From IMG/VR virus record IMGVR_UViG_3300027963_000206, positions 1-32,496 of that record: a stretch of DNA of 32,496 nucleotides; one strand, written 5' to 3'. Both the position numbers and the translations under genes were made by a program. A model generated the notes under the pieces. The model was given only the letters and a program-made list of their open reading frames with translations, was not told where the DNA came from and searched no databases. Shown here in pieces: positions 1 through 9,872 of this stretch (its first letter is position 1; each line of letters opens with the position of its first letter). This stretch comes from a virus.

Positions 1-105
1 TGGAAGTCTGCGGCCCTGGCAGATCTGGCACAGCAAAAAGTAAAAAAATCACTTGGCTGCCGCTGCGGGGTTGATAAAAATATTTTAGACTTTCCTGACT
101 TTTAG
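1..105 (+). CDS. possible 3' end of an upstream gene (34 residues, partial)
   Basis: Reading from base 1, the first frame stays open to a TAG at 103-105 and ends in SLGCRCGVDKNILDFPDF, with a CRC motif. It contains one copy of the AGCAAAAAGTAAAAA element, read here as QQKVKK. The other two + frames are also open for part of the stretch (one ends in SKK-stop inside the repeat, another reads AKSKK), so the coding frame cannot be fixed. No function can be assigned from so short a tail. This could equally be intergenic sequence preceding the promoter at 108. Confidence 0.25.
   Translation, partial: WKSAALADLAQQKVKKSLGCRCGVDKNILDFPDF
32..46 (+). repeat. AGCAAAAAGTAAAAA element, exact copy 1
   Basis: Exact 15-base copy of the dispersed early-region element. 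It lies 76 bases upstream of the -35 box of the promoter at 108-136. No clear CTATAAACAATT partner follows. Confidence 0.85.
89..99 (-). promoter_or_regulatory. GTCAGGAAAGT motif, minus strand
   Basis: ACTTTCCTGAC on the + strand is the exact complement of the 11-mer found inside the spacers of the promoters at 5419, 6384 and 7902. A second, partial copy (ACTTTCCTAG, 111-120) overlaps the start of the promoter at 108. Here the motif precedes rather than fills a promoter, which would suit an operator. Confidence 0.45.
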
Positions 106-107
106 AC

Positions 108-136
108 TTGACTTTCCTAGAGCAAGGGCGTATTGT
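108..136 (+). promoter_or_regulatory. promoter for the 189 gene
   Basis: TTGACT (108-113), a 17-base spacer and TATTGT (131-136). The predicted transcript starts near 143 and carries a Shine-Dalgarno (AAAGGAAAG, 176-184) before the ATG at 189. The TTG that would extend this reading frame upstream is the -35 box itself, so the longer frame is not the gene. Confidence 0.65.
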
Positions 137-188
137 GCGTTATGTAAGTGAGAAACTCTCTCTTACAAAGAACGAAAGGAAAGACACA

Positions 189-593
189 ATGACAAACAAT
201 GTCAAAGGTGTTGTAGATACAGTAGTGGCAATTCGCACTACTACTACAACCATTAAGAACGATACAAAAGTAATCGTTCTTGATGAAACTAATGCTAAAG
301 AACTTCTAGCGAAGTTTGAGGCAAACAAGGCAGACAAGGCAACCTTAGAAGCCCAATACAAAGAACTACAAGCCGAAATCTATTCACTTCTTGGATACAA
401 GAAGGTTGGCGACAAATGGATTGGTGTCGCAGAGGAAGGCACTATTGACGGAGTTTCCGTTATCAAAGTAGGAACACAAACTCGCACAAACTTTGATAAA
501 GAAAAGTTCTTACAGGAAAATCCTGAACTTCTACCGCTAGTTGAGGCTTTCACTTCACAAAGCACCAACACAATTCTAAAGACAACTCGGTAA
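189..593 (+). CDS. conserved phage protein of unknown function (134 aa)
   Basis: The start is the ATG at 189, which follows AAAGGAAAG at a normal distance and lies downstream of the promoter at 108. The protein has a Thr-rich N-terminus (RTTTTTIKND), a charged helical stretch at about residues 40-70 (KELLAKFEANKADKATLE), and a globular end with LGYKKVGDKWIGVAEEGTID and FDKEKFLQENPEL. The GYxKVGDKW and FxxExFLxxNPEL patterns recur in early proteins of actinophages, but I know no established function. A terminator at 614-632 follows the stop directly, so it may be a single-gene transcript. I am confident it is a gene and do not know what it does. Confidence 0.8.
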   Translation: MTNNVKGVVDTVVAIRTTTTTIKNDTKVIVLDETNAKELLAKFEANKADKATLEAQYKELQAEIYSLLGYKKVGDKWIGVAEEGTIDGVSVIKVGTQTRTNFDKEKFLQENPELLPLVEAFTSQSTNTILKTTR

Positions 594-613
594 TGTCTAA
601 AACTAAAAAGAAG

Positions 614-635
614 CCCCCGCTAACTGCGGGGGTTT
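614..635 (+). terminator. hairpin terminator after the 189 gene
   Basis: CCCCCGC (614-620) pairs with GCGGGGG (626-632) around TAACT and is followed by TTT. The T-tract is short, so it may be partly read through into the 653 gene, for which I find no separate promoter. Confidence 0.7.
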
Positions 636-652
636 CCCAACAAGGGGGAAAA

Positions 653-1117
653 ATGACAACAAAGACACTAACAATAGGTGAAGCAGTAAAATCTATGAAC
701 TTTCTTGCTACTAACTTTATGGAAACAAATGAGTTAGATAGAGAAGCGTTAGAAATATCTAGTAAAGCAATAAGTAAAAATCTACTTATTCGTGATTACT
801 TTATGGGTATGCCGAAAGACTTTGGATTACCTTTTATGACTTCTCTATGTAAAAAAATGATAAGTGAGGTAGATAGTTCAGAACTTCTTGACTTATACGC
901 AATTTATTCAGCGTTCTTATATGAGGGTGGAGAAAGCGAACTTGCTTTAGATAACCTAAATAAAGCGTCAGAGATAAACAATAAGCACCCACTAACAGAA
1001 CTGTTGGTTCGTGTTTATGAGCACGCTTGGGAAGCAAGTAGTTTCTCTGAGATGAGAAGTGCTATCCACAAAAAAGTTATTGCTGAAGCAAAGAAATACG
1101 CAAAAGACGAAATCTAA
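653..1117 (+). CDS. DUF4192-like protein (154 aa)
   Basis: The ATG at 653 follows AAGGGGGA and lies after the hairpin at 614-632. An in-frame upstream ATG at 593 would place that terminator inside the coding region, so I reject it. The N-terminus reads TLTIGEAVKSMNF and a middle segment RDYFMGMPKDFG. The C-terminal half (LLDLYAIYSAFLYEGGESEL, then ALDNLNKASEINNKHPL) has the helical, TPR-like pattern of the end of the actinobacterial DUF4192 family, in which a gain-in-number helix is followed by A-L-DxAL and P-x-H/HPL. The family function is unknown. The assignment rests on pattern memory. A terminator at 1132 closes the unit. Confidence 0.75.
   Translation: MTTKTLTIGEAVKSMNFLATNFMETNELDREALEISSKAISKNLLIRDYFMGMPKDFGLPFMTSLCKKMISEVDSSELLDLYAIYSAFLYEGGESELALDNLNKASEINNKHPLTELLVRVYEHAWEASSFSEMRSAIHKKVIAEAKKYAKDEI
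766..780 (+). repeat. near copy of the 15-bp element inside a gene
   Basis: AGCAATAAGTAAAAA differs from the element at one base. It lies within the coding sequence of the DUF4192-like gene, where it contributes to SKAISKN. It may be chance in A-rich coding DNA, or a genuine intragenic copy like the one at 9037. Confidence 0.45.
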
Positions 1118-1131
1118 AACAAAAGGAGAAG

Positions 1132-1153
1132 CCCCGCCAAGCGCGGGGTTTTT
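1132..1153 (+). terminator. terminator after the DUF4192-like gene
   Basis: CCCCGC (1132-1137) pairs with GCGGGG (1143-1148) around CAAGC, followed by TTTTTC. It sits 15 bases after the stop codon and is a typical intrinsic terminator. Confidence 0.8.
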
Positions 1154-1154
1154 C

Positions 1155-1220
1155 TTTATGCGGTGGTAGCAAAAAGTAAAAATTAAAGTTTTTAATTTTC
1201 TGGTGGACTATAAACAATTT
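1155..1220 (+). repeat. bipartite repeat copy A: 15-bp element plus CTATAAACAATTT box
   Basis: Exact AGCAAAAAGTAAAAA at 1168-1182, preceded by TTTATGCGGTGGT and followed 40 bases from its start by CTATAAACAATTT (1208-1220). Copy B at 2424-2491 has the same order, nearly the same spacing (42) and a similar left flank (TTTGTGCGGCAGT). It ends about 20 bases before the -35 box of the promoter at 1240, which suggests a regulatory role there. Confidence 0.75.
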
Positions 1221-1239
1221 TATGACTTATGCGTGTATA

Positions 1240-1269
1240 CTTGCGAAAAAGTGATTGCCCTGTTATAAT
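1240..1269 (+). promoter_or_regulatory. strong promoter giving a leaderless transcript
   Basis: TTGCGA (1241-1246) and TATAAT (1264-1269) are separated by 17 bases. Counting 6-7 bases past the -10 box puts the transcription start at the A of the ATG at 1276, so the 1276 gene should be translated without a leader. There is no Shine-Dalgarno between the -10 box and the ATG. Confidence 0.7.
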
Positions 1270-1275
1270 AAAGAT

Positions 1276-2403
1276 ATGAAGCCAACAGAAGCATTGGATA
1301 TTCGTGCTAACTTTAAGAGTAAGTGCGGTGATAGCCTATGGAAAGAACTCGTAAAGCAAACCATTATGATTTCTTCAGGGGCAAAGTTTTACAAAGAAAA
1401 ATTAGCATCTACCCACAAACAAAAAGAAGATATTATTCTTAGAGAAAAAGCAATTGAAGTTTATGTAGAAGATGTTATTCGTGCTGGTATGTCGGCAGAG
1501 TGTTTCTTTATCAAAGACGAAATGACAGACCTAGTGTTGTTTGCTTCTCAGAAACTAGATGATACAGATTTGTTTGACCCAACGCTTGCCCCGACAGATA
1601 AGGGATTTGCTTACTTTGAGAAACCTGTTCCACTTATAGATGTTCGAGGAAGAGAACTTCTAATAAATGTTATCACTTGGGAAAGAATATTTAACGAAGA
1701 AATAGGTAATTTTGTGATATCCATGTCTTGCTGGAACGATACTGCTAGAACGCCTGACGAAGTTGCAATTGAAATTATTTCTAATAAAGATAAAGCACAT
1801 CAAGAATTATTGAAAAAAATAGGTCGTTTCCATTGGATAAAAAGTGAAACAGTAAAACCAGGAACTACTGTTGGTTCTAAAGAAATAGAATTAACAGAAC
1901 AAGAACTACAAGCGATTAAAGAAACTACTTTTGATAAAAGTTATGGAGTAGAGCAAAAAGATAACTCTCTAGACTACAATAGACTTTCAGATAAAGCGTG
2001 GGAAGAATATAAAGAAAAAATAATTACAAACCCTACAAATGTAGTGCGGATACTTCACGCTTACTGGCTACTAATGTCGCAGTCCATCGTTGAGCAGTCA
2101 AAAGAAAAAGGTGATAGAGCGCAACGAAGAAGACTAGAGCGAGAGAATTGCCCGACAGAAGTTGTTGTTATTCAATTTAGAAAGCGTAAGTATTACAACG
2201 AGCGTGGTGAAGAAACTGAAGAAAGCAAAAAAATTGACTGGTCGCATAGATGGTTAGTCGGCGGGCATTGGCGTTGGCAACCATACAAAGACCCCATAAG
2301 CAAGGGAGAAATTAAAAAGCGTATTTGGATTAACCCTTATGTAAAAGGTCCTGAGGATAAACCTCTTGTAATGAAAGATAAGATTTATGTTCTTGCTAGA
2401 TAA
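1276..2403 (+). CDS. conserved actinobacterial/actinophage protein with HRW-GHWR-KGPEDKPL C-terminus (375 aa)
   Basis: The start is the ATG at 1276. A TTG seven codons upstream overlaps the -35/-10 spacer and is unlikely. The first two thirds are charged and mostly helical, with no motif I can name. The last 60 residues carry a conserved block: SHRWLVGGHWRWQPYKD, then KRIWINPYVKGPEDKPLV. I recognise this block (HRW-V-GHWR-Q, IWI-PY-KGP) from many unannotated proteins of actinobacteria, their plasmids and their phages, where it usually closes the protein. Its function is unknown. The RAQRRRLER stretch just before it is strongly basic and could bind nucleic acid. It forms a single-gene transcript with its own strong leaderless promoter, so high early expression is likely. 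Confidence 0.8.
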   Translation: MKPTEALDIRANFKSKCGDSLWKELVKQTIMISSGAKFYKEKLASTHKQKEDIILREKAIEVYVEDVIRAGMSAECFFIKDEMTDLVLFASQKLDDTDLFDPTLAPTDKGFAYFEKPVPLIDVRGRELLINVITWERIFNEEIGNFVISMSCWNDTARTPDEVAIEIISNKDKAHQELLKKIGRFHWIKSETVKPGTTVGSKEIELTEQELQAIKETTFDKSYGVEQKDNSLDYNRLSDKAWEEYKEKIITNPTNVVRILHAYWLLMSQSIVEQSKEKGDRAQRRRLERENCPTEVVVIQFRKRKYYNERGEETEESKKIDWSHRWLVGGHWRWQPYKDPISKGEIKKRIWINPYVKGPEDKPLVMKDKIYVLAR

Positions 2404-2423
2404 TTAAAAAACTTGACGATTTT

Positions 2424-2491
2424 TTTGTGCGGCAGTAGCAAAAAGTAAAAATTTACCAAGATGCCTAGTGCAGGAAAACTATAAACAATTT
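2424..2491 (+). repeat. bipartite repeat copy B: 15-bp element plus CTATAAACAATTT box
   Basis: Exact AGCAAAAAGTAAAAA at 2437-2451, with CTATAAACAATTT at 2479-2491. The DNA between the boxes differs from copy A while the boxes and left flank match, as expected for two bound sites rather than a recent duplication. A TTGACG at 2413 lies just before it. The promoter at 2531 follows 40 bases later. Confidence 0.75.
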
Positions 2492-2530
2492 CGCTATGTG
2501 GGGTAGGCAATTAAAAACAGCGAGGGGTGC

Positions 2531-2558
2531 TTGACTAAATTATGTAAGTATGTAATAC
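2531..2558 (+). promoter_or_regulatory. promoter of the 2586-3573 operon
   Basis: TTGACT (2531-2536), a 16-base spacer and TAATAC (2553-2558). The predicted leader is about 20 bases and carries the Shine-Dalgarno AAAGGGGAAA before the ATG at 2586. Confidence 0.65.
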
Positions 2559-2585
2559 TACGGATATCAGGGAAAGGGGAAACAA

Positions 2586-2837
2586 ATGAACTCTGAGGTA
2601 TTAGAACTAAAGTTAGACGAAGAGGAAGTTGGCTTCGTAAATATGGGTTTGGCATTGCTATTAGAAATGCTTGGCTCTGATATAGATGGCTGGAAAAATA
2701 AGAAGGATACTTCTATGGATAAGTTATTCTTTTTAATGGATACCAAAGTTGGAGTTGCTAATCTTTGGCGCAAGGTGCTTATCACCGCTGGGGCTGACCC
2801 TGAAACGATTGCTGAACATTTAAGAGAGCAGGAGTAA
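2586..2837 (+). CDS. hypothetical acidic protein (83 aa)
   Basis: First gene of a four-gene operon, with a clear Shine-Dalgarno (GGGAAAGGGGAAA) ahead of the ATG at 2586. The N-terminus is acidic (LELKLDEEEVGF). It is followed by a helical hydrophobic stretch (MGLALLLEMLG) that is too short and interrupted to be a membrane segment, then a helical C-terminus ending in ETIAEHLREQE. I do not recognise the family. Three bases separate its stop from the next gene, so the two are translationally linked. Confidence 0.7.
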   Translation: MNSEVLELKLDEEEVGFVNMGLALLLEMLGSDIDGWKNKKDTSMDKLFFLMDTKVGVANLWRKVLITAGADPETIAEHLREQE

Positions 2838-2839
2838 TC

Positions 2840-3010
2840 ATGACAATTAAAGAAGTAGAGTTGGAATACACAGTGGATACTCTTGCTAAGTTAGTAAGAG
2901 ATAACTACGGAAAGAACGCTGTTGAGTATCTAGTTGGTAGATTAACTAGTGTGATAACTGAGAAACAACTCAAGGCTTTGATTGACTATGAAAAGGGCGT
3001 AAATGGATAA
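2840..3010 (+). CDS. hypothetical small protein (56 aa)
   Basis: ATG at 2840 preceded by GCAGGAGTAATC, giving a good Shine-Dalgarno that lies at the end of the previous gene. The translation is MTIKEVELEYTVDTLAKLVR and continues through DNYGKNAVEY to EKGVNG. It is all-helical in character, with no Cys and no membrane segment, and the function is unknown. Its last 8 bases overlap the start of the 3003 gene. Gene density, the Shine-Dalgarno and interlocked overlaps on both sides support it being real. Confidence 0.7.
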   Translation: MTIKEVELEYTVDTLAKLVRDNYGKNAVEYLVGRLTSVITEKQLKALIDYEKGVNG

Positions 3011-3233
3011 CATACTTCCAAGCCGAACAGTAATGTTCGTTGGCGATTACTTTACGCTAATGACCACCATAGTCTTAGACGAAAAACTAAGAAACGAAGG
3101 CGAAGCCGAAAATGACTTTGCGGTTCGCGTTGCGTCTGTATTCATGAAAGAATACTACGGCTTTGATGTAGCGTCAGTTGCTAACAGTATTGGAGTTGTA
3201 GATGAAGATGGAGCAGAGGTAGATAATGATTAA
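3003..3233 (+). CDS. hypothetical acidic protein (76 aa)
   Basis: ATG at 3003 overlaps the previous gene by 8 bases, with AAAAGGGCG as Shine-Dalgarno. The protein starts MDNILPSRTVMFVGDYFTLM and ends in the very acidic GVVDEDGAEVDND. A hydrophobic start followed by a helical middle (EAENDFAVRVASVFMKEYYG) suggests a small globular protein. It overlaps the next gene by 8 bases, so the operon is translationally coupled. No family recognised. Confidence 0.7.
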   Translation: MDNILPSRTVMFVGDYFTLMTTIVLDEKLRNEGEAENDFAVRVASVFMKEYYGFDVASVANSIGVVDEDGAEVDND

Positions 3234-3573
3234 GACTGCTGTAGATTTATTTGATGAAGTTTGTAATGCCGTTTCTAAAGGAGAACTAGATAAACAATTA
3301 CTTCCCCTTAAAAAACTTATAGAGGAGCGATTAAGTATTGTGAGGGTAGATGCGGATATAAAGGATTTTGTAGTTGGAGACAGGGTTGTTCTAAATAGCA
3401 GTTGCGGAACAAAGTCTTTAATAGGAGATGAAGGAACTGTAGTTGCTATCAGGAGAAGTAAAATCACTATTACTTTTGATAAACCTAAAGGTAGGTTTGC
3501 TAGAACAAACTCAAAGGGAGAGATTTACTCTGCCAATGCCGTAGTTCCTATATCCATAGTTGATAAGATTTAA
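3226..3573 (+). CDS. small protein with an SH3/KOW-like C-terminal barrel (115 aa)
   Basis: ATG at 3226 overlaps the preceding stop by 8 bases. Residues 1-45 are helical (AVDLFDEVCNAVSKGELDKQ). From about residue 48 the pattern KDFVVGDRVVLNSSCG, then GDEGTVVAIRRSKITITFD, is that of a small beta barrel of the SH3/KOW type: a V-GD-V-V strand, a G-x-G-x-V turn and an I-I-F-D strand. Such modules bind RNA, DNA or protein partners; which one cannot be told. It is the last gene of the operon that starts at 2531. Confidence 0.7.
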   Translation: MIKTAVDLFDEVCNAVSKGELDKQLLPLKKLIEERLSIVRVDADIKDFVVGDRVVLNSSCGTKSLIGDEGTVVAIRRSKITITFDKPKGRFARTNSKGEIYSANAVVPISIVDKI

Positions 3574-3586
3574 GAGCGTCTGAGCA

Positions 3587-3601
3587 AATAAAAAGTAAAA
3601 A
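3587..3601 (+). repeat. variant copy of the 15-bp element
   Basis: AATAAAAAGTAAAAA keeps the AAAAAGTAAAAA core (3590-3601). It is intergenic, 14 bases after the end of the 2531 operon. Confidence 0.6.
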
Positions 3602-3623
3602 ATCAGGCTAAACTAATTCTCAC

Positions 3624-3658
3624 CTTGGGTAGCGGTTAATCCCCTTTTCCGCCCCGAG
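3624..3658 (+). other. intergenic RNA hairpin
   Basis: CTTGGG (3624-3629) and GCGG (3632-3635) pair with CCGC (3649-3652) and CCCGAG (3653-3658), leaving a two-base bulge, one wobble and a 13-base loop. No T-tract follows. It may belong to a structured 3' end together with the hairpin at 3692. It does not fold like a tRNA. Confidence 0.4.
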
Positions 3659-3691
3659 TTGAGAGCAGAACACACCCCTTCTTGCTCCGCC

Positions 3692-3718
3692 AACCCCCCA
3701 CCGATCTGGGGGGTTTGG
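3692..3718 (+). terminator. hairpin terminator after the 2586-3573 operon
   Basis: AACCCCCC (3692-3699) pairs with GGGGGGTT (3708-3715) around an 8-base loop. The following TGGTGTTTAAT is only weakly T-rich, so termination efficiency is uncertain. Confidence 0.6.
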
Positions 3719-3767
3719 TGTTTAATCCAACAAAATCACCCTTCTGAGAGTAGGGTATTTTTTAACC

Positions 3768-4013
3768 ATGGAGATTGTAGATAAGTATTACCACTCAAAT
3801 GGTTCTGCCGTTCCCTTTATTGCCGCCCTTGTTGATGATCCGGCTGATGGAGATACAAAAATTGTTATCATGTTTGACGAGAGGGACTTTACTGCTGTTC
3901 TTTCGCTAGACTCTCTACTTAGAGATGAAGATATTTCTGCAAGAAACAATGGATATCACGGAGATAAGTATGAAAAACTTAGAGAAGATTTGTGGGACGG
4001 TTTTTTAGACTAA
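3768..4013 (+). CDS. hypothetical acidic protein (81 aa)
   Basis: ATG at 3768. I see no good Shine-Dalgarno. A TATTTT (3756-3761) seven bases before the ATG would allow a leaderless transcript, but no convincing -35 box goes with it. The protein is beta-rich then helical: AALVDDPADGDTKIVIMFDE, DFTAVLSLDSLLRDEDI, and an acidic end KLREDLWDGFLD. The family is not recognised. Its stop codon TAA shares its last A with a copy of the 15-bp element. The Ntn-hydrolase gene follows 28 bases later and may be co-transcribed. Confidence 0.65.
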   Translation: MEIVDKYYHSNGSAVPFIAALVDDPADGDTKIVIMFDERDFTAVLSLDSLLRDEDISARNNGYHGDKYEKLREDLWDGFLD

Positions 4014-4027
4014 GCAAAAAGTAAAAA
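4013..4027 (+). repeat. AGCAAAAAGTAAAAA element, exact copy
   Basis: Exact copy that begins on the last base of the stop codon of the 3768 gene and ends 14 bases before the ATG of the Ntn-hydrolase gene. GGGGA follows it as the Shine-Dalgarno. No CTATAAACAATT partner is seen here. Confidence 0.85.
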
Positions 4028-4041
4028 ATTGGGGAAAAATT

Positions 4042-4614
4042 ATGACAACTATTGCAGCGATACAGGGAGAGAACTGGGCTGCCATAGGGTATGACGCAAG
4101 ACTGACTGAAGACAATAGCAAGATTTACACGCTGCCTAAAGATAATGGAAAAGTAAATAGAAACGGTCCATACTTAATTGGTGCGGCTGGAGATATGCGT
4201 GCCATCAACATACTTACACATGTCTTTAAGCCACCTGCCGTAAATCCAAACCTTTACGGGGCAAAGTTAGACAAGTTTATCTCCTCAGTCTTTATCCAAG
4301 ATATGAAACATTGCTTCGAGGAGAACTCTTACAGCAAAGATGGAGAGCATGACTCTCAAGTAATGGTTGCGGTTAATGGAACTATCTACGAAATTGGTGA
4401 TGACTTCTCATGGGCACATGATGAAACAGGCGTATATGCCATAGGTTCAGGGGGCGGATACGCAATGGGAGCAATGCTGGCAAGCCTAGACAATAAAAAG
4501 AAAACCTTAGGCACAGCCAAGAATGTTATTAGACAAGCAATAACTATCGCTGCCAAGTTAGATCCAAGCACAGGGCTGCCGATCAATATCGCGGTGCAGC
4601 ACTTCGGATCTTAA
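4042..4614 (+). CDS. HslV/proteasome-like N-terminal-threonine hydrolase (190 aa)
   Basis: After removal of Met the protein begins TTIAAIQGENWAAIGYDAR, matching the HslV and proteasome beta family, in which the N-terminal Thr is the nucleophile. Numbered from that Thr, an Asp falls at position 17 (GYDAR), as in HslV, and K36 in NGKVNR is the likely partner of HslV Lys33. The signature IGSGGGYAMGAMLA lies at residues 134-147, where this family has its GSGG turn before a long helix. AAGDMRA at about 48-54 corresponds to the G-x-AG-x strand. No propeptide is present and no HslU-type ATPase gene is nearby. It probably forms a barrel peptidase, with or without host regulators; substrates are unknown. 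Shine-Dalgarno GGGGA precedes the ATG at 4042. Confidence 0.8.
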   Translation: MTTIAAIQGENWAAIGYDARLTEDNSKIYTLPKDNGKVNRNGPYLIGAAGDMRAINILTHVFKPPAVNPNLYGAKLDKFISSVFIQDMKHCFEENSYSKDGEHDSQVMVAVNGTIYEIGDDFSWAHDETGVYAIGSGGGYAMGAMLASLDNKKKTLGTAKNVIRQAITIAAKLDPSTGLPINIAVQHFGS

Positions 4615-4615
4615 A

Positions 4616-4671
4616 AAGTTGTTTTGATCTGACTCAACTGACACCTGAAGATATATTTTTTACTTTTTGCT
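4616..4671 (-). repeat. inverted copy of the 15-bp element with a degenerate partner box
   Basis: TTTTTACTTTTTGCT at 4657-4671 is an exact copy on the minus strand, the only copy in that orientation. Reading on the minus strand, ATCAAAACAACTT (4616-4628) follows 43 bases from its start, close to the 40-42 spacing of copies A and B, and resembles the CTATAAACAATTT box. The promoter at 4697 lies just beyond it. Confidence 0.6.
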
Positions 4672-4696
4672 AGGAAGAAACACCAGATCATCATAC

Positions 4697-4725
4697 TTGC
4701 CAACAACTTATCAACATGATAGTAT
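4697..4725 (+). promoter_or_regulatory. promoter of the 4751 gene
   Basis: TTGCCA (4697-4702), a 17-base spacer and TAGTAT (4720-4725). The predicted leader of about 20 bases contains GAAAGAGGGGGAAA, a strong Shine-Dalgarno before the ATG at 4751. Confidence 0.65.
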
Positions 4726-4750
4726 CTGTGTTGAAAGAGGGGGAAATAAA

Positions 4751-5151: not shown

Positions 5152-5165
5152 TATAAAATCAAACT

Positions 5166-5196
5166 AACTCCTTGCCTTACGGCAGGGAGTTTTTTA
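5166..5196 (+). terminator. strong intrinsic terminator
   Basis: AACTCCTTGCC (5166-5176) pairs with GGCAGGGAGTT (5181-5191), with one wobble and a TTAC loop, followed by a run of T. It ends the 4751-5151 transcript. Confidence 0.85.
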
Positions 5197-5244
5197 TTGG
5201 AAAAACCTTTACATTTTTTTCATCAAGGCGGTATGCACATCCAA

Positions 5245-5345
5245 AAGTTGTTTGTAAATCTGGACTGACAGCAGCATGGTCATAGCAAAAAGTAAAAAAA
5301 TACAGCAGCCTGGCTATTTGCGGCTTCGTAAGTTGTTTATAGATT
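5245..5345 (+). repeat. 15-bp element flanked by two AAGTTGTTTRTARATY boxes
   Basis: Exact AGCAAAAAGTAAAAA at 5284-5298. It is flanked by AAGTTGTTTGTAAATC (5245-5260) and AAGTTGTTTATAGATT (5330-5345). These are complements of the CTATAAACAATT box seen in copies A and B, so here the boxes are inverted relative to the element and occur on both sides. The rest of the 5152-5400 gap holds the terminator at 5166 and nothing else I can name. The promoter at 5419 follows. Confidence 0.65.
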
Positions 5346-5418
5346 TCAAAGCGGGCTCAAAGTGAGCGTAGGAAGTAAGCGCTTTTTCTGAAGGACAACT
5401 ATGAAAATTGTTGCCTTC

Positions 5419-5447
5419 TTGACAAAAAGTCAGGAAAGTGCTACTCT
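5419..5447 (+). promoter_or_regulatory. promoter with GTCAGGAAAGT in the spacer
   Basis: TTGACA (5419-5424), 17-base spacer and TACTCT (5442-5447). The spacer contains GTCAGGAAAGT (5429-5439), four bases after the -35 and two before the -10 box. The same 11-mer occupies the same place in the promoters at 6384 and 7902. Confidence 0.7.
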
Positions 5448-5478
5448 TACGAAACAAGGTAAGAGAAAGGGGAAATCA

Positions 5479-5655
5479 ATGAGAGGCTTACCTGATAGTG
5501 CAATAGTAGGAACCTATGGTCGTATTAAACACATGAGGCACAAAAGCCGTCATAGTGCTAAGGAGTATCAAGCAACTGCGGATTTCTTAAACAATATGAT
5601 AAACAAGGCAATACAAAAACAATTAGATAAAAAAAGTAATTTGACAAAAGTCTAA
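5479..5655 (+). CDS. hypothetical basic protein (58 aa)
   Basis: I use the ATG at 5479, which follows AGAAAGGGGAAA and lies downstream of the promoter at 5419. The in-frame ATG at 5401 is upstream of that promoter. The protein is strongly basic: RIKHMRHKSRHSAKEY, then helical DFLNNMINKAIQKQLDKK. It could be a nucleic-acid-binding protein, but I recognise no family. Its 3' end contains the next promoter (TTGACA at 5641). Confidence 0.65.
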   Translation: MRGLPDSAIVGTYGRIKHMRHKSRHSAKEYQATADFLNNMINKAIQKQLDKKSNLTKV

Positions 5656-5669
5656 TTATTTATTAAAAT
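5641..5669 (+). promoter_or_regulatory. consensus-like promoter of the phosphatase operon
   Basis: TTGACA (5641-5646), 17-base spacer and TAAAAT (5664-5669), with its -35 inside the end of the preceding gene. It lacks the GTCAGGAAAGT motif. The Shine-Dalgarno AAAGGGGGGAAC follows before the ATG at 5693. Confidence 0.75.
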
Positions 5670-5692
5670 ATAAAAAGAAAGGGGGGAACTAA

Positions 5693-6223
5693 ATGTTTTC
5701 CTTAGAAGATGAAGCACTAGAACTATTAGAAACAAAAATAGCACCACGCTCTTACACAGTTGAGTATCCAAAAGAGTTATGGTCAGAGGTTCTTCCCGGC
5801 TTATGGCAAGGTGGAACTGATGATGATGATATCTTTGATCAACTAGCAAAACCAGCAATTAGTAAAAAAGATTTTGATTTAGTGATCACCGCTTATGCCT
5901 CAGCAAACCCAGTTGATTGGTTTGTGAAAGAACTAAGATTTGGATTTTACGATAGCGATATGCAGGACTTTGACCCTAATGAGTTAAAGCCGATTGTTCG
6001 CATGGCACATGAGGATTGGAAACGCGGTCAGCGTGTCCTAATTCGTTGCCAAGCAGGTATGAACAGATCAGGCTTGATCATGGCTCTAGTTCTTATCCGT
6101 GAAGGTTATACGGCAGATGAAGCCATTAACTTGATTAGAACCAAGAGAAGCAAGCACGCCCTATTTAATGGTCGCTTTGAGAATTGGCTTAAAGAGGCAA
6201 GCGTTGAGGCTTGGAGAAACTAA
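5693..6223 (+). CDS. dual-specificity (cysteine-dependent) protein phosphatase (176 aa)
   Basis: The P-loop IRCQAGMNRSG gives Cys119 as nucleophile and Arg125 as phosphate-binding residue, in the C-x5-R-S form of the dual-specificity/tyrosine phosphatase family. The residue before Cys is Arg rather than the usual His. The region FGFYDSDMQDFD (about 83-94) is the likely general-acid loop, with an Asp such as Asp87 or Asp89. The helix after the P-loop, LIMALVLIREGYTADEAINL, and the RSKHAL segment are typical. LWQGG at about 37-41 matches the family entry strand. It is expressed from a consensus promoter at 5641. It would remove phosphate from Tyr/Ser/Thr of host or phage proteins; the substrate is unknown. 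A kinase-like domain is encoded in the structural block at 14794. Confidence 0.88.
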   Translation: MFSLEDEALELLETKIAPRSYTVEYPKELWSEVLPGLWQGGTDDDDIFDQLAKPAISKKDFDLVITAYASANPVDWFVKELRFGFYDSDMQDFDPNELKPIVRMAHEDWKRGQRVLIRCQAGMNRSGLIMALVLIREGYTADEAINLIRTKRSKHALFNGRFENWLKEASVEAWRN

Positions 6224-6387
6224 TGCCTAGATACGAGATCATCTTAGAAAAGAACAAGACAAAAGTTATACGAGCATCTTCGCTAGAGGTCGCTGAAGAA
6301 AGAGCGAGCAAGATGGAAGTAGATGGTTGGTCAGTTATGCGTATATATGAGCAAAAGGGGCAACACGCCGAAAGTCAGGAAAGTTGA
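6223..6387 (+). CDS. hypothetical small protein (54 aa)
   Basis: ATG at 6223 overlaps the phosphatase stop as TAATG, with GGAGAAAC as Shine-Dalgarno. The translation starts MPRYEIILEKNKTKVIRASS, with a beta strand then helix (LEVAEERASKMEVDGW) and a second strand (SVMRIYEQ). This is a beta-alpha-beta small fold common among phage microproteins. Its C-terminal codons carry a GTCAGGAAAGT copy (6374-6384) and its TGA lies within the -35 box of the next promoter. No family recognised. Confidence 0.65.
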   Translation: MPRYEIILEKNKTKVIRASSLEVAEERASKMEVDGWSVMRIYEQKGQHAESQES

Positions 6388-6411
6388 TTTTGTCAGGAAA
6401 GTCTGTATAAT
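6374..6411 (+). promoter_or_regulatory. promoter with tandem GTCAGGAAAGT motifs
   Basis: TTGATT (6384-6389), 16-base spacer and a perfect TATAAT (6406-6411). GTCAGGAAAGT occurs twice: immediately upstream of the -35 (6374-6384) and inside the spacer (6392-6402). The tandem arrangement suggests an operator bound cooperatively. Confidence 0.75.
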
Positions 6412-6452
6412 TATCTTATTGGCAAATTGTCAATAGGACTAAGGGGGTCTAT

Positions 6453-6608
6453 ATGAAAACGAAGGCAAAGTATATTAGACGCAGAGTGGTAGTAGCACTT
6501 GTGTTGGTCGGTCTTATTGTTTGGGCTAACAACGCAACGACACCTGAGATGTGTAAAGTGCCGACAGAGCAGATGAACCAATTCTGCCTAGACCTGTTGT
6601 ATCCATAA
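6453..6608 (+). CDS. small single-pass membrane protein (51 aa)
   Basis: ATG at 6453 after AAGGGGGTC, first gene behind the promoter at 6384. A basic N-terminus (MKTKAKYIRRR) is followed by one hydrophobic helix (VVVALVLVGLIVWA) and a short tail with two Cys (PEMCKVPTEQ, FCLDLLYP). The positive-inside rule places the tail outside the membrane, where the two Cys could form a disulfide. A secreted product is possible but no clear cleavage site is visible. Unknown function. Confidence 0.65.
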   Translation: MKTKAKYIRRRVVVALVLVGLIVWANNATTPEMCKVPTEQMNQFCLDLLYP

Positions 6609-6618
6609 AGGGGACAGC

Positions 6619-6840
6619 ATGACTAAAGCACTTATCACTATCGAGGTAGATATAGATACTACTAATCACCCCGTTCAAAATGGATTAGGGGAATCATCTA
6701 ATCCTCAGACGCCACCGAGAAGTAGGATTGTAGAAGCCAAGCGAGAGTTGGTTTGGGACACTGTTCATAGTTGGGTTTCAGATAAGCAGGGGTTTATTCA
6801 GATAAAAGAAGTAAGGTTTCCAAAAGGCAACTCGTGGTGA
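6619..6840 (+). CDS. hypothetical protein (73 aa)
   Basis: ATG at 6619 with AAAGGGGACAGC as Shine-Dalgarno, 10 bases after the previous stop. It begins with a strand (ALITIEVDIDTTNH), then a disordered Pro/Ser-rich linker (GESSNPQTPPRSR), then a helix-strand end (ELVWDTVHSWV, IQIKEVRFPKG). The family is not recognised. Confidence 0.65.
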   Translation: MTKALITIEVDIDTTNHPVQNGLGESSNPQTPPRSRIVEAKRELVWDTVHSWVSDKQGFIQIKEVRFPKGNSW

Positions 6841-6857
6841 ATTACCTAAAACAGAAA

Positions 6858-6872
6858 GGGAAAAAGTAAAAA
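6858..6872 (+). repeat. variant 15-bp element placed between Shine-Dalgarno and ATG
   Basis: GGGAAAAAGTAAAAA ends immediately before the ATG at 6873 and directly follows AGAAAGGG. The same arrangement is seen at 7297, so at these two sites the element also forms the translation-initiation region. Confidence 0.65.
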
Positions 6873-7160
6873 ATGTCTGATACGCATAATCACCTTGAAC
6901 AACTAACTGAGAAATGGAACGAAGTCCCTAACTGGACAGTTCTTGAGTCTTGGAAAGGAAAAGGAAAAGAAAGTAATAAGTTCTATTTTAAGATTTATGA
7001 AGATAGAACAGGAGAGCATGCACCGTTCTATTGCTTAGAGGAAAACAAAGAAAGTAGGACTTTTATCTACTGCGCCACGAGGAGAAAAGACAGACAAGGG
7101 TATATCTTTCACCTAGAGGAAATAGATATAGCCCCACAACTAGTAGGAAGTGAGAAATAA
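6873..7160 (+). CDS. hypothetical protein (95 aa)
   Basis: ATG at 6873, with AAAGGG about 12 bases upstream, separated from it by the A-rich element. The protein reads MSDTHNHLEQLTEKWNEVPN, then FYFKIYEDRTGEHAPFYCLE and TFIYCATRRKDRQGYIFHLE. It is a mixed alpha/beta protein with aromatic strands, two Cys in separate strands, and no recognisable motif. It is in an operon with the 6453 and 6619 genes. Unknown. Confidence 0.65.
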   Translation: MSDTHNHLEQLTEKWNEVPNWTVLESWKGKGKESNKFYFKIYEDRTGEHAPFYCLEENKESRTFIYCATRRKDRQGYIFHLEEIDIAPQLVGSEK

Positions 7161-7161
7161 T

Positions 7162-7308
7162 ATGATACTTGACACGGGAACACTTATAGGTATTGTTATC
7201 GCACTTGCTTGTTCATGCTTTGTAATGGTGCTTTCTATTGTGAAGTATGGCGTTCTATACCGAGAGAACCAAGAACTAACCGAGAAACTAAAGAAAGGTA
7301 AAAAGTAA
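7162..7308 (+). CDS. small single-pass membrane protein with C-terminal helix (48 aa)
   Basis: ATG at 7162, one base after the previous stop, with AGGAAGTGAG upstream. Residues 7-27 form a membrane helix (TLIGIVIALACSCFVMVL). It is followed by a charged amphipathic tail YRENQELTEKLKKGKK that looks like a short coiled coil. Its last codons GGT AAA AAG and its stop TAA are part of a 15-bp element copy. The topology resembles small accessory holins or Rz-like spanins without the lipobox, but that is speculative. Confidence 0.65.
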   Translation: MILDTGTLIGIVIALACSCFVMVLSIVKYGVLYRENQELTEKLKKGKK

Positions 7309-7311
7309 AAA
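7297..7311 (+). repeat. variant 15-bp element forming a stop codon and the next initiation region
   Basis: GGTAAAAAGTAAAAA encodes the end GKK-stop of the 7162 gene, and its final A is the first base of the ATG at 7311. It follows AGAAAGG as at 6851-6872. Confidence 0.65.
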
Positions 7312-7487
7312 TGAACCAATTTCCAGAGTGCGACACCTTAAGATGTCAGTTCGAGTGGATTGATTTATCTAGCAACTTCTTTGATATCTCAGTTTATACT
7401 CCCGCGGCGCTTGTCGTTTTAGTAGGAGTATTAATTTACAGAGCCTTCAAGAGAAAACAATGGTCTGGGTTTAATGGCAAAAAGTAA
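7311..7487 (+). CDS. small single-pass membrane protein (58 aa)
   Basis: ATG at 7311, two bases after the previous stop. The N-terminal 27 residues are polar with two Cys (PECDTLRCQFEW). A hydrophobic helix follows (PAALVVLVGVLIYRAF), then a basic tail RKQWSGFNGKK. The basic residues after the helix suggest an N-outside, C-inside orientation. The last three codons and stop (GGC AAA AAG TAA) are again supplied by a 15-bp element copy. It overlaps the HTH gene at 7474 by 14 bases in another frame. Function unknown. Confidence 0.65.
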   Translation: MNQFPECDTLRCQFEWIDLSSNFFDISVYTPAALVVLVGVLIYRAFKRKQWSGFNGKK

Positions 7488-7674
7488 AAAACTAGAAAGT
7501 CAGGCTGCAGAACTATATACATCTGGTCTGGCTATCGATAGTGTTGCGGTTGAACTAGGAGTTTGTTATAGAACTGCTAGGAAGGCTATCCGTAATGGTG
7601 GAGTGCAACTAAGAGATCCCTCTTCTCGCTTGAGAGGTCGGACTAAACCTAACAACAAGAAAGGCAAGAAATGA
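7474..7674 (+). CDS. small helix-turn-helix DNA-binding protein (66 aa)
   Basis: ATG at 7474, overlapping the 3' end of the 7311 gene. Residues 8-40 form a clear HTH: ESQAAELYTSGLAIDSVAVE, then LGVCYRTARKAIRNGG. The recognition helix is around YRTARKAIRN, in the form seen in resolvase/Hin-type and sigma-like HTHs. The remainder is basic (LRGRTKPNNKKGKK), which suits a DNA minor-groove tail. At this size it is a single HTH with a tail, so it would act as a dimer or on tandem sites. It is the only small HTH regulator in the early region and so a candidate reader of the repeated elements, but there is no direct evidence for that. Its own N-terminus MAKSKK is encoded by the element. Confidence 0.75.
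   Translation: MAKSKKLESQAAELYTSGLAIDSVAVELGVCYRTARKAIRNGGVQLRDPSSRLRGRTKPNNKKGKK
7476..7490 (+). repeat. 15-bp element (one mismatch) across a gene overlap
   Basis: GGCAAAAAGTAAAAA lies in the overlap of two genes. It encodes the GKK-stop of the 7311 gene in one frame and AKSKK after the start codon of the HTH gene in another. Confidence 0.75.
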
Positions 7675-7823
7675 ACAACTTAAACATAGTATGGACTGCT
7701 GTAGGAACAATAGTCTTAGGACTTGCGACTCTACTGTCAGCATGGCAGGGTGACATGACCTACACGGTGGCATTTGGTCTTGCATCAATTGCTTCGGCTA
7801 CTTTGTCTAGCAGAGAGAAGTAA
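7671..7823 (+). CDS. two-helix membrane protein, candidate holin (50 aa)
   Basis: ATG at 7671 overlaps the HTH gene stop by four bases (ATGA), with AAAGGCAAGA as Shine-Dalgarno. Two hydrophobic helices (about 6-24, VWTAVGTIVLGLATLLSAW; about 30-45, TYTVAFGLASIASATL) are joined by the short loop QGDM, with a charged tail SSREK. This is the hairpin topology of class II holins. It is the last gene before the terminator at 7849, and the lysozyme-fold gene lies one short unit downstream. The holin role is inferred from size, topology and place only. Confidence 0.6.
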   Translation: MNNLNIVWTAVGTIVLGLATLLSAWQGDMTYTVAFGLASIASATLSSREK

Positions 7824-7848
7824 GCCAGAAGATAGTTTTCAGCAGAAG

Positions 7849-7884
7849 CCCCCTAGAACTTTGGTTGGGACTAGGGGGTTTTTT
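7849..7884 (+). terminator. strong intrinsic terminator
   Basis: CCCCCTAG (7849-7856) pairs with CTAGGGGG (7871-7878) around a 14-base loop, followed by six T. Confidence 0.85.
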
Positions 7885-7901
7885 GCTGTCTCGGCGTGTC
7901 T

Positions 7902-7930
7902 TTGACTATTTGTCAGGAAGGTGGTAGTAT
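7902..7930 (+). promoter_or_regulatory. promoter with GTCAGGAAGGT in the spacer
   Basis: TTGACT (7902-7907), 17-base spacer and TAGTAT (7925-7930). The spacer contains GTCAGGAAGGT (7912-7922), at the same offset from both boxes as in the promoter at 5419. Confidence 0.7.
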
Positions 7931-7953
7931 TTGTCCTAAAGGGGGGTATTTAG

Positions 7954-8064
7954 ATGAAAACCATGAAAAAGCAAATCATTTATATTTCTTGCTGGAAATG
8001 TGGCAAATCTATGGCTGTAGCGGAGATTGACTACCGAAATGGGCTCATTTGCGAGAGTTGCTAG
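7954..8064 (+). CDS. zinc-ribbon microprotein (36 aa)
   Basis: ATG at 7954 preceded by AAAGGGGGG. The translation MKTMKKQIIYISCWKCGKSM runs on to LICESC and a stop. CWKC (13-16) and CESC (33-36) give the C-x2-C, x16, C-x2-C arrangement of a minimal zinc ribbon, with a short beta hairpin (AVAEIDYRNGLI) between. Its role is unknown. It has its own regulated promoter at 7902. Confidence 0.7.
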   Translation: MKTMKKQIIYISCWKCGKSMAVAEIDYRNGLICESC

Positions 8065-8240
8065 CCCTAAACCTCACTTTCCTGCACTATTTGTGGTAAC
8101 CTGATACCTATGAAGCACCAAACGACTTACGACCTACGGACGCATTAGAAAGGTAGTTGTAATACCTGTCTCCCCAAAGCGGGTGGCACGGGTTGGCTAG
8201 TTAAGCAACCTTGTCTCTGTCCCCTAACAAAGGAAAATCA
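8065..8240 (+). other. leader region of the lysis pair
   Basis: This gap holds ACTTTCCTGC (8076-8085, minus-strand relative of the GTCAGGAAAGT motif), a weak promoter-like TGCACT with ACTATTTGT as in the 7902 promoter, and a possible 12-codon ORF (8110-8148). The leader of over 100 bases folds at least into GGTTG/CAACC with an inner CT/AG pair around 8190-8215. It ends with AAAGGAAAATCA, the Shine-Dalgarno of the 8241 gene. It does not match a tRNA, and I could not match it to the c-di-AMP (ydaO) riboswitch. Confidence 0.4.
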
Positions 8241-8843
8241 ATGCACAAACCCAGTAATAGAGTTGTCGAACAAATAGCGAGCATATTGATTGCTGTTCTA
8301 TCTGTATCTATCTTCTCTACTTATATTCAATCATCTGTCGCACAAACGACACCGCAAACAAAAGATGCAATAAAGATCCAGATTGATAAAGAAATAGAAG
8401 CGCATAAAGTAAAAATTAGAAATTTAGAGTTGAAGAAGTTTTCTGAACAGAAGACTCCTTTCACCGATGAAGAGTTAGTCAAGATGCTAAGCGCCATTGG
8501 GTTCGAAGGTAAGGCACTCAAAGTAGCGTGGGCAGTTGTGAAGAAAGAATCAAATGGACGCCCCCTAGCCTTTAATGGCAATGTTAAAACAGGAGATAAC
8601 TCTTACGGCATATTCCAAATCAACATGATTGGTGGATTAGGCGTAGCACGGCGCGATAAGTTTGACCTTGACTCTAATAAGGACTTATTCGACCCAGTTG
8701 TTAATGCCCAGATTGCTTACTACATGAGCAACGAAGGAAGCGATTGGTCAGCATGGGGGGTAGGTAAGTTCCCTTATAATGGTAATACCGATCAAACCAT
8801 GTATAACTTATGGATTACCAAGTTCCCAGAAGGAGCAATCTAA
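8241..8843 (+). CDS. exported lysozyme-fold (SLT-like) peptidoglycan hydrolase (200 aa)
   Basis: I use the ATG at 8241, which follows AAAGGAAA; the upstream in-frame TTG at 8211 has none. Residues 10-31 form one hydrophobic segment (IASILIAVLSVSIF), followed by SSVAQ, a possible signal-peptidase site, so the product is exported or membrane-tethered (a SAR-type endolysin is possible). Residues 36-66 are a charged coiled-coil. From about 74 the soluble lytic transglycosylase/lysozyme pattern appears: VAWAVVKKESNGRP with Glu103 as likely catalytic acid, then SYGIFQIN (121-128), and DPVVNAQIAYYMS. It would cleave the glycan strand of the cell wall during lysis. The 8843 gene overlaps its stop by one base. 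Confidence 0.82.
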   Translation: MHKPSNRVVEQIASILIAVLSVSIFSTYIQSSVAQTTPQTKDAIKIQIDKEIEAHKVKIRNLELKKFSEQKTPFTDEELVKMLSAIGFEGKALKVAWAVVKKESNGRPLAFNGNVKTGDNSYGIFQINMIGGLGVARRDKFDLDSNKDLFDPVVNAQIAYYMSNEGSDWSAWGVGKFPYNGNTDQTMYNLWITKFPEGAI

Positions 8844-9319
8844 TGAGCGATGAATTAAACCAAGAAGCCCCCGCCAGTTGGGAAGCACCTAACGAGGCTG
8901 AAGCCCCTGCGGTTGTTGAAGTTGTTGCTACTCCAGCAGAGCCAGATCCAGTTGTAGAGCCAGAGCAAGAGCCAGTTGTTGAAGTTGTTGCTACTCCAGA
9001 GCCTGCGGCTGTAGTTGAAACACCTGCGGCTGAAGAAGCAAAAAGTAAAAAATCTACAGCAGCATCCAGTTATCAAGATGGAGAAGTTGTTGTGTTGTCT
9101 AAGTTAGTTCTTAGCAGCAAAGAAAGAAACTCTAGGTCAGTTGCTTTAGTTCAAGAGCAATTGATATCAAAAGGATTTGCTGATGCCGATATGGATAAAC
9201 GCGGTTGGTATAAAGAGAATACCCAGAAGGCATTGCTAGAGTTCTGCGGTAGTGAAGGTATTAACGAAGCCACATTAAAGAAGTTGTTTGCTAATACAAA
9301 GGTAGCAATAGCCTACTAG
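8843..9319 (+). CDS. PEVA-rich protein with a peptidoglycan-binding-like C-terminus (158 aa)
   Basis: ATG at 8843 overlaps the lysozyme-fold gene (TAATG), with AAGGAG as Shine-Dalgarno. Residues 1-68 are low-complexity Pro/Glu/Val/Ala, including two copies of VVEVVATP encoded by an exact 25-base direct repeat (8912-8936 and 8975-8999). Residues 95-150 (SRSVALVQEQLISKGFADAD, then GWYKENTQKALLEF) fit the PG_binding_1 pattern of Q-x2-L-x3-GF, GW-Y, T-x2-A-x2-F. I infer a cell-wall-targeting partner for the 8241 enzyme, with a flexible linker, made as a separate chain. No signal peptide is visible, so it would need the holin for access. It may instead be a virion or tail protein. Confidence 0.7.
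   Translation: MSDELNQEAPASWEAPNEAEAPAVVEVVATPAEPDPVVEPEQEPVVEVVATPEPAAVVETPAAEEAKSKKSTAASSYQDGEVVVLSKLVLSSKERNSRSVALVQEQLISKGFADADMDKRGWYKENTQKALLEFCGSEGINEATLKKLFANTKVAIAY
8912..8999 (+). repeat. intragenic 25-bp direct repeat
   Basis: GTTGTTGAAGTTGTTGCTAC plus TCCAG occurs at 8912-8936 and again at 8975-8999, 63 bases (21 codons) apart and in frame. It encodes the repeated VVEVVATP of the linker. Confidence 0.85.
9037..9051 (+). repeat. AGCAAAAAGTAAAAA element, exact intragenic copy
   Basis: Exact copy inside the 8843 gene, read as EAKSKKS at the junction between its low-complexity linker and its folded domain. Its presence within a gene shows that the element is not only a promoter part. 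Confidence 0.85.
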
Positions 9320-9327
9320 AATTAAAA

Positions 9328-9350
9328 AAGCCCCCCTATGCGGGGGGCTT
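9328..9350 (+). terminator. bidirectional terminator between convergent units
   Basis: AAGCCCCCC (9328-9336) pairs with GGGGGGCTT (9342-9350) around TATGC. On the minus strand the stem is followed by a T-run (complement of the A-run at 9325-9329), so it ends the 9364 gene well. On the + strand it is followed by CTTGTCTT. It closes the early + block. Confidence 0.85.
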
Positions 9351-9363
9351 GTCTTACTCTTAT

Positions 9364-9504
9364 TTACTTTATTACTTTAAAGATTAATTCATTTACTGAA
9401 TCAACATCTGTTTTGACTTGTAGAGAGTTGCCGTTGCGAATATCGTTTGCAAGCATAGAAAGGGCTGTGTGAATAAGCGCCTTGTCGTTAGGTGTAAGTG
9501 TCAT
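9364..9504 (-). CDS. minus-strand hypothetical microprotein (46 aa)
   Basis: This is the only minus-strand gene I accept. The ATG at 9504 follows GGGGGAAAG on the minus strand. A longer frame to 9561 would start upstream of the predicted transcription start. The translation begins MTLTPNDKALIHTALSMLAN and ends in DSVNELIFKVIK. It is two helices with a polar turn (DIRNGNSLQVKTD), of unknown family. It has its own consensus promoter and a leader hairpin, and ends at the bidirectional terminator. A separately regulated, oppositely transcribed microgene at the early/late boundary could be a regulator. Confidence 0.75.
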   Translation of the reverse strand: MTLTPNDKALIHTALSMLANDIRNGNSLQVKTDVDSVNELIFKVIK

Positions 9505-9523
9505 TTTCTTTCCCCCTATTTCT

Positions 9524-9540
9524 AAGCACCCCTTGTGCTT
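9524..9540 (-). promoter_or_regulatory. leader hairpin of the minus-strand gene
   Basis: AAGCAC (9524-9529) and GTGCTT (9535-9540) pair around a 5-base loop in the short leader, just upstream of the Shine-Dalgarno. It could stabilise the message or modulate initiation. Confidence 0.5.
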
Positions 9541-9549
9541 ATAGGTATA

Positions 9550-9578
9550 AAGATAGCACATGTATTTATAGTTGTCAA
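9550..9578 (-). promoter_or_regulatory. consensus promoter of the minus-strand gene
   Basis: On the minus strand, TTGACA (9573-9578), a 17-base spacer and TATCTT (9550-9555). It predicts a start near 9543 and a 40-base leader. Confidence 0.75.
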
Positions 9579-9857
9579 GTATCTACTATAGGCGTGTCTT
9601 AGTCAGGTAAATGTTCTAGGAATATCTAAACTCCAGGTTTATAGTTAGACATAAAGGCAAGAGTAGTCAAACCATAAACAGTGGCTTTGGTGCATTCAAC
9701 ATTAGAACAATTTATTTAGTTGTGAAACATCTAAGCCCTGATATATCTAGGCTAACCAAACTTGAGCCACCTCGACTCAACCTTGACTACAAGCCTATAC
9801 CTATAGAACAATACTAAACATACATATAAAAAATAAAAGTATTTATTGCCTTAAAAC

Positions 9858-9872
9858 CTAAAAAAGTAAAAA
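9858..9872 (+). repeat. variant copy of the 15-bp element
   Basis: CTAAAAAAGTAAAAA keeps the 12-base core (9861-9872). It is the last copy before the structural genes. Confidence 0.5.

Follow-up and report, generated by a model that had tools for sequence, protein, structure and literature searches.

A dispersed, oriented 15-bp element in the early region of actinophage-like genomes: a candidate stoperator-like site

The IMG/VR record IMGVR_UViG_3300027963_000206, whose 32,496 nucleotides are the window analyzed here, comes from a tailed phage and carries in its first 9.9 kb a dispersed 15-bp sequence, element A (short form AG[C/T]AAAAAGTAAAAA), at a density of about one copy per kilobase. 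What we observed directly is the copy number of this element, its conservation, its architecture, its orientation rule, a constraint acting at the DNA level, and a partner motif (motif B). From these sequence patterns we conclude that element A is probably a docking site for a regulator of early phage genes, whose binding, sign of effect, and identity we infer. On balance, we favor the interpretation that it is a DNA-level cis-regulatory site resembling an operator or stoperator, by which a phage regulator would coordinate the early transcription units. The region is called early on the basis of its gene content and position.

Copies of element A and their conservation

Seven exact 15-mers (AGCAAAAAGTAAAAA) lie at positions 32, 1168, 2437, 4013, 4657 (minus strand), 5284, and 9037, and five additional copies of the core AAAAAGTAAAAA lie at 3587, 6858, 7297, 7476, and 9858; a one-mismatch copy occurs at 766 and weaker copies at 5854 and 8401. 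An earlier sequence-only reading of the window had reported all of these, together with a shared orientation for all but one and the absence of core copies from the structural genes. Each report was reproduced, as 11 of the 12 cores are on the plus strand and no exact core occurs past 9.9 kb in the window. The reported accumulation also withstands comparison with shuffled, Markov, and codon-preserving nulls (12 exact cores against 0.02 to 0.6 expected). Core matches with at most one mismatch number 16, against 1.7 ± 1.4 in dinucleotide shuffles, and 0 of 100 shuffles reach 16. Markov models of order 1 to 5 predict 0.02 to 0.55 exact cores in the first 10 kb (0.015 to 0.02 if the copies are masked), and codon shuffling of the early open reading frames (ORFs) predicts 0.044 coding copies, compared with three cores that overlap ORFs. 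These nulls rule out chance or an A-rich composition as the origin of the copies. The earlier description of copies as intergenic, at gene overlaps, and inside genes understates the intergenic preference: coding sequence makes up 75% of the first 10 kb, yet 9 of the 12 cores do not touch an ORF.

The portal, major capsid, major tail, and adaptor proteins of the window match PHROGs 776, 777, 792, and 783. By portal protein, the nearest isolate is the Actinomycetia phage DSL-LC01 (OQ999401; lake water) at 77%, followed by large Microbacterium and Arthrobacter phages, and there is no DNA similarity to named phages at the megablast level. A near relative, G001, has 133,336 bases and a portal 99% identical to that of the window; its opening bases recur at 132,578 as a terminal repeat, from which we take this contig to be probably complete, with a length of ~132.6 kb. 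The window itself represents part of an ~133-kb actinophage-like genome. The contigs compared here are metagenomic and mostly incomplete, and genes outside named records were called by a simple script. Apparently the lineage consists of large, aquatic, lytic actinophages, with the host deduced from protein relatives and the lifestyle likewise deduced. A search of eight contigs found no tyrosine integrase (PF00589). Six of the eight, including one that lacks element A, encode a short serine recombinase (PF00239, in a frame of 219 to 233 amino acids [aa]). Lysogeny is not indicated for the phages that carry the element. In G001 the recombinase (106190-106837; L109:6190-6837) combines PF00239 with a truncated PF07508, and a collagen-repeat protein is encoded close by.

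Element A occurs in seven related contigs, at 14 to 30 copies each, in one block of 18 to 30 kb. All 15 exact copies of G001 fall within ~21 kb, from 132,554 across the junction to 19,990, and all 30 copies of G006 (127 kb) fall in the stretch from 75 to 105 kb. Another related contig, G032, carries 20 copies. The proposed confinement to the early region therefore holds in these longer relatives as a strong concentration but not as a strict rule, given single outlying copies in G005 and G010.

We collected 337 unique and 218 nonredundant sites from the related contigs; sites from one lineage are not independent of each other. The 12-base core served to collect them, so its invariance is by construction, and the informative positions are -3 to -1 and the edges. 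The collected sites give the consensus [A/G]-G-[C/T/G]-AAAAAGTAAAAA, with sharp edges at 15 bp. The main form in G006, AGTAAAAAGTAAAAA, consists of the heptamer GTAAAAA, two in tandem.

The element is held at orthologous places in the relatives, even inside a gene, which is the positional conservation on which the sequence-only reading had staked its proposal. All six element-bearing relatives compared have the intragenic copy at 9037 in the orthologous gene, at identities down to 36%. The copy 5' of an HslV-like gene (4013 in the window) is present in all six element-bearing contigs compared (G001, G004, G005, G006, G008, and G010; 36 to 80% protein identity, plus G001), and that in codons 1 to 6 of a gene for a 66-aa helix-turn-helix (HTH)-like protein (7476) is present in five of six, at an identical offset (+5) in G001, G005, G006, G008, and G010. 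No element A was found at the orthologous genes of G009 and DSL-LC01. Among near relatives, element A and motif B are constant at orthologous sites while the spacers between them vary. Across 11 sequences of the 9037 site, 16 bases are identical, all synonymous positions included, and the AAGTTGTT boxes of motif B are likewise invariant, whereas codons vary in the flanks and codon-sized gaps are present. Because these bases are invariant amid changing codons, we take the DNA of element A itself to be under purifying selection, as judged from the alignment.

Placement, orientation, and motif B

Most copies are intergenic, and many lie 3' of a terminator and 5' of a sigma70-like promoter. GGGGTTT terminator tails are 25-fold enriched at positions -70 to -8 of the element. 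Co-directional sigma70-like promoters 20 to 160 bp downstream number 38, against 5 upstream and 1 reverse-facing downstream; in a separate tally, full sigma70-like promoters follow element A at 39 sites, with a median element-promoter distance of 86 bp in this lineage. The sequence-only reading had held that the element is not simply a promoter or ribosome site. That much is borne out: element A does not itself constitute a promoter, and there are start-associated and intragenic copies. The placement between terminator and promoter, however, had been missed. Of 138 copies in this lineage, 123 have their A-rich strand in the direction of the genes and 15 in the opposite direction.

The copies that adjoin start codons (6858 and 7297, with similar cases in G004, G006, G008, and G010) are those expected of a translation-level signal, such as the extended ribosome site proposed for the start-associated sequences (SAS) of cluster K phages. 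Such copies are a minority, however. The median distance from a copy to the next called gene is 136 to 322 bp, most copies are ~100 to 300 bp 5' of that gene and often ahead of its promoter, and orientation is opposite in other lineages (see below), so that we consider a role in translation highly improbable. A reading as RNA structure was rejected: folding of the composite sites gave a mean z of -0.11, there is no pairing of the left spacer with the right one, and element A matched no Rfam family.

Motif B (AAGTTGTTTGTAG, also written AAGTTGTTTGTAgtT) lies ~34 bp from about one-third of the copies. It starts 30 to 61 bp before element A in 43 of 218 cases, nearly all in plus orientation, and lies 37 to 60 bp after it in 58 of 218, in both orientations; the background rate of AAGTTGTT predicts about 1.4 and 3 cases, respectively. 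Both sides are occupied (B-A-B) at 24 of the 218 sites. Where motif B accompanies element A, its presence is suggestive of a complex assembled on several sites. One could also suppose that the B-A-B composites are anchors for DNA bridging, segregation, or replication, holding the early region together or marking initiation, and it is in keeping with this that they occur irrespective of promoters, one of them inside a gene. Yet no ParB_N domain was found in eight contigs, motif B shows no clear helical phasing relative to element A, orientation tracks the transcription units, and the elements of other lineages are strictly at unit boundaries; we judge an anchor improbable. For the marking of primase or replication sites, which the sequence-only reading had offered as an option, we found no evidence; orientation follows the transcription units and is opposite in other lineages.

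Of the options offered there, binding of a phage regulator, in the manner of stoperators or SAS, is the best supported, with binding itself a prediction. In such a mechanism, a DNA-binding regulator specified or recruited by the phage would bind each copy in one orientation and act jointly on the early transcription units. The copies lie where a regulator of the stoperator type could usefully act: past the terminator that closes one unit and ahead of the promoter that opens the following unit, at operon-internal gene starts, and occasionally within genes. The effect would likely be a coordinated restraint of early transcription, at both initiation and read-through, for example, as an early shut-off, and where motif B accompanies element A a multi-site complex may form. 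Because copies occur at operon-internal starts and within a gene, we prefer a stoperator-like mode of action, affecting elongation as well as initiation, to that of a pure activator.

Other lineages, the protein reader, and known systems

Six related contigs that lack element A have other dispersed A-tract elements, at 9 to 43 copies each:

G026: GTATTCGTTTTTTCC, 43 copies
G025 and G024: AAAAATGAAAAAT, 26 and 22 copies
G027: GGAAAAAATACATAA, 14 copies
G007: GGAAAAAATCTTT, 19 copies
G022: GCTCAAAAAAGGT, 9 copies

By the script's gene calls, each of the 133 copies occupies an intergenic position, after a terminator and before a promoter, with medians of 66 to 192 bp past the preceding gene and 96 to 132 bp ahead of the next. 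Most early units of G026 have the order terminator, element, promoter-like boxes, ribosome-binding site, ATG. The A-rich strand runs along the genes in G007 (16 of 19) and G022 (9 of 9) and against them in G024 to G027 (94 of 103). A signal read in RNA should not flip between lineages, whereas a DNA site can, and we therefore favor a DNA-level site over an RNA or ribosome signal. The A-tract elements of the different lineages may be regarded as one family by position and composition rather than by sequence alignment. In G026 (L288-L290), GACACG is enriched between the element and the -35 box, and ACACGG in G024 and G025; GACACG is perhaps the local counterpart of motif B in G026.

This placement would also suit an upstream activator, of phage or host origin, that binds element A (and motif B) and raises the sigma70-type promoter that follows, so that the early units come on together. 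Other lineages have nearly one element per transcription unit, and the median element-promoter distances are 40 bp in G026, 58 bp in G007, and 46 bp in G022, compared with the 86 bp given above. Against an activator are the broad range of promoter distances (10 to 160 bp), the many copies of element A that are start associated, intragenic, or opposed and have no promoter ahead, and the opposite orientation between lineages. We consider it rather unlikely.

As a possible reader we examined a double-HTH protein of ~190 to 220 aa, with an N-terminal HTH like sigma region 4 and a C-terminal HTH of the form "LAKRLGVTHGALRFR". One or two paralogues occur in every element-bearing contig examined, and tblastn found none in G009, G007, G014, or DSL-LC01. 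An AlphaFold2 model has two helical domains (mean predicted local distance difference test score, 80; predicted template modeling score, 0.56). Foldseek returned no significant match for this model, only hits of sigma-factor and ParB HTH type, and no sequence relation to solved repressors was found. Its size and two-domain layout recall the repressors of TipsytheTRex and L5 (PMC9283540). Presence and absence point to the double-HTH protein, but its invariant helices and its weak relatives elsewhere weaken the case, and we do not claim it as the specific reader. Among the inspected gene families that are in all element-bearing contigs and absent elsewhere, there was no obvious DNA-binding protein.

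Several of these observations weigh against a stoperator-like regulator site. Both recognition helices of the double-HTH protein are near-invariant across lineages whose elements differ, G007 has its own element but only a weak double-HTH relative, and Pumpernickel carries a double-HTH protein without element A in its first 33 kb. In addition, orientation is not absolute, with 15 exceptions among 138, and a position upstream of promoters suits an activator equally well as a repressor.

The stoperators of cluster A mycobacteriophages (L5 gp71) are short asymmetric sites with >20 copies, intergenic or near gene boundaries, in one orientation relative to transcription, and their consensus varies between related phages (PMC9283540, PMC3029335). 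Element A resembles them in the many copies of a short asymmetric site (14 to 30 per main block in seven contigs) and in an orientation correlated with transcription. It differs in sequence, being A-tract based and 15 bp long rather than of the 5'-GGTGGMTGTCAAG or GTTACGWDTCAAG type; in its concentration in one block (~21 of 133 kb in G001) instead of genome-wide; and in having a partner motif and opposite orientations between lineages. The cluster A site is bound by a monomer of its cognate two-domain HTH repressor; the helices of the double-HTH protein described above do not covary with the site. Cluster A phages are temperate and have immunity; of the eight contigs searched here, none yielded a tyrosine integrase and six have the short serine recombinase.

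Cluster K SAS are asymmetric, repeated, and mostly in one orientation, with a subset tied to a second motif (PMC3203893). Element A shares these properties, its subset being the copies with motif B, but the SAS are, with rare exceptions, immediately 5' of start codons, as only a minority of our copies are, and their consensus (GGGATAGGAGCCC) is not matched by element A. Their second motif, ESAS, consists of 17-bp inverted repeats, whereas motif B comprises one box of ~13 bp, ~34 bp away from element A. Lytic Microbacterium phages of clusters EC, EF, EG, and EI have repeated, cluster-specific motifs without assigned function (PMC7302621). Those of EC (18 bp, 12 times per genome) and EI (30 bp, five times) are in small intergenic regions of genomes that have no integrase or repressor. 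Like the EC and EI motifs, element A is asymmetric, repeated, intergenic, and conserved within its lineage, apparently also in lytic actinophages. The EC motif, 22 to 30 bp before start codons, differs in sequence and position from our elements, with their 14 to 43 copies, their terminator-promoter slot, and their intragenic copies.

DSL-LC01 has a gene order similar to that of the window lineage and an early block with 16 copies of one element (AAAGATGTTATA); it lacks element A as well as motif B in its AAGTTGTTTG form. Unlike element A, the DSL-LC01 element has a -10-like box of TATAAT type shortly 5' of the ribosome-binding site and is itself promoter-like. In the DSL-LC01 record (L149, 24795-43316), CTAAAGATGTTATA occurs 16 times, in many cases followed by a ribosome-site-like stretch, ACGAAAGGACAA, as near-identical promoter-like units.

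We found no prior description of element A in the limited literature searched. Dispersed actinophage motifs are already known; what is new is the slot common to several lineages and the DNA-level conservation within a gene. Such motifs have so far been recorded cluster by cluster, without function. Different A-tract elements in one slot across a wide phage group provide a comparative handle on the reader, expected to be a protein in which the residues that contact DNA differ where the element differs. The elements also offer a ready-made map of early transcription units in phages of abundant, poorly cultured aquatic actinobacteria. More speculatively, lytic actinophages might have a fast-diverging early-regulon code, with a lineage-specific A-tract operator at nearly every early unit and a coevolving regulator. 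We hold this to be quite unlikely; if true, phages whose codes differ could not sense one another's early control, in a situation like heteroimmunity but outside lysogeny.

Gene exchange and features of the window

The window differs from G001 by a single gene (1255-2403), and both breakpoints are at copies of element A. The slot at 1168-2451, in which this gene lies between direct copies, has other sequence in G001, G003, G013, L028, and L036, and its left breakpoint recurs in several relatives as a replacement hot spot. This is one clear case of the cassette boundaries that the sequence-only reading had suggested, where short direct repeats would drive homologous exchange or loss of gene cassettes. 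As a general role it fails, since most other gene indels among close relatives are 140 to 600 bp from the nearest copy. Recombination, moreover, needs neither conservation within coding sequence nor a B-A-B arrangement, and is more probably a by-product of repeated sequence. We give little credence to cassette exchange as the function of element A; the repeats probably assist occasional exchange without existing for that purpose.

The features of the window are as follows.

32-46, plus: exact element A, intergenic, 61 bp ahead of a TTGACT-N17-TATTGT promoter-like site
108-136, plus: the sigma70-like promoter just named (TTGACT-N17-TATTGT), which follows the first copy
766-780, plus: element A with one mismatch (AGCAATAAGTAAAAA), within ORF 593-1117
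1131-1153, plus: intrinsic-terminator-like stem GCCCCGCCAAGCGCGGGG and T-run, directly 5' of the 1168 copy
1168-1182, plus: exact element A, intergenic, past the terminator; left breakpoint of the hot spot
1208-1220, plus: B-like element CTATAAACAATTT, motif B in reverse orientation
2437-2451, plus: exact element A, intergenic; right breakpoint of the 1255-2403 indel
2479-2491, plus: B-like element CTATAAACAATTT
3587-3601, plus: core copy AATAAAAAGTAAAAA, intergenic, 3' of ORF 3226-3573; position shared with G001 and G006
4013-4027, plus: exact element A, its first base the last stop-codon base of ORF 3768-4013; 5' of the HslV-like gene
4042-4614, plus: HslV/proteasome-like gene (phrog_1040, 3.3e-25), with plus and minus copies of element A on either side
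4616-4623, no strand assigned: motif B half of the 4657 composite
4657-4671, minus: exact element A, middle of a B-A-B composite
4702-4709, no strand assigned: motif B half of the 4657 composite
5245-5252, plus: left-hand motif B of the 5284 composite (AAGTTGTT of AAGTTGTTTGTAAA)
5284-5298, plus: exact element A, intergenic, middle of a B-A-B composite
5330-5337, plus: motif B, right of the 5284 copy
6858-6872, plus: core copy adjoining the ATG at 6873 (start associated)
7297-7311, plus: core copy whose final A is that of the ATG at 7311 (start associated)
7476-7490, plus: core copy in codons 1 to 6 (MAKSKK) of the 66-aa HTH-like gene
8982-8989, plus: motif B, left of the 9037 copy
9037-9051, plus: exact element A within ORF 8843-9319, a B-A-B composite in coding sequence
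9084-9091, plus: motif B, right of the 9037 copy
9858-9872, plus: last core copy (CTAAAAAAGTAAAAA), intergenic

The HslV/proteasome-like protein is phage encoded and present in most relatives; the copies that flank its gene are opposed in the window. The 66-aa HTH-like protein (7474-7674) has weak matches to PF19575 and PF13384 and, with element A in its first codons, is possibly an autoregulated DNA-binding protein. Positions 10046-10546 encode a 166-aa protein with two apparent HTH segments. It is conserved close to the portal gene in every relative, whether or not element A is present, and is possibly a remote member of the double-HTH family.

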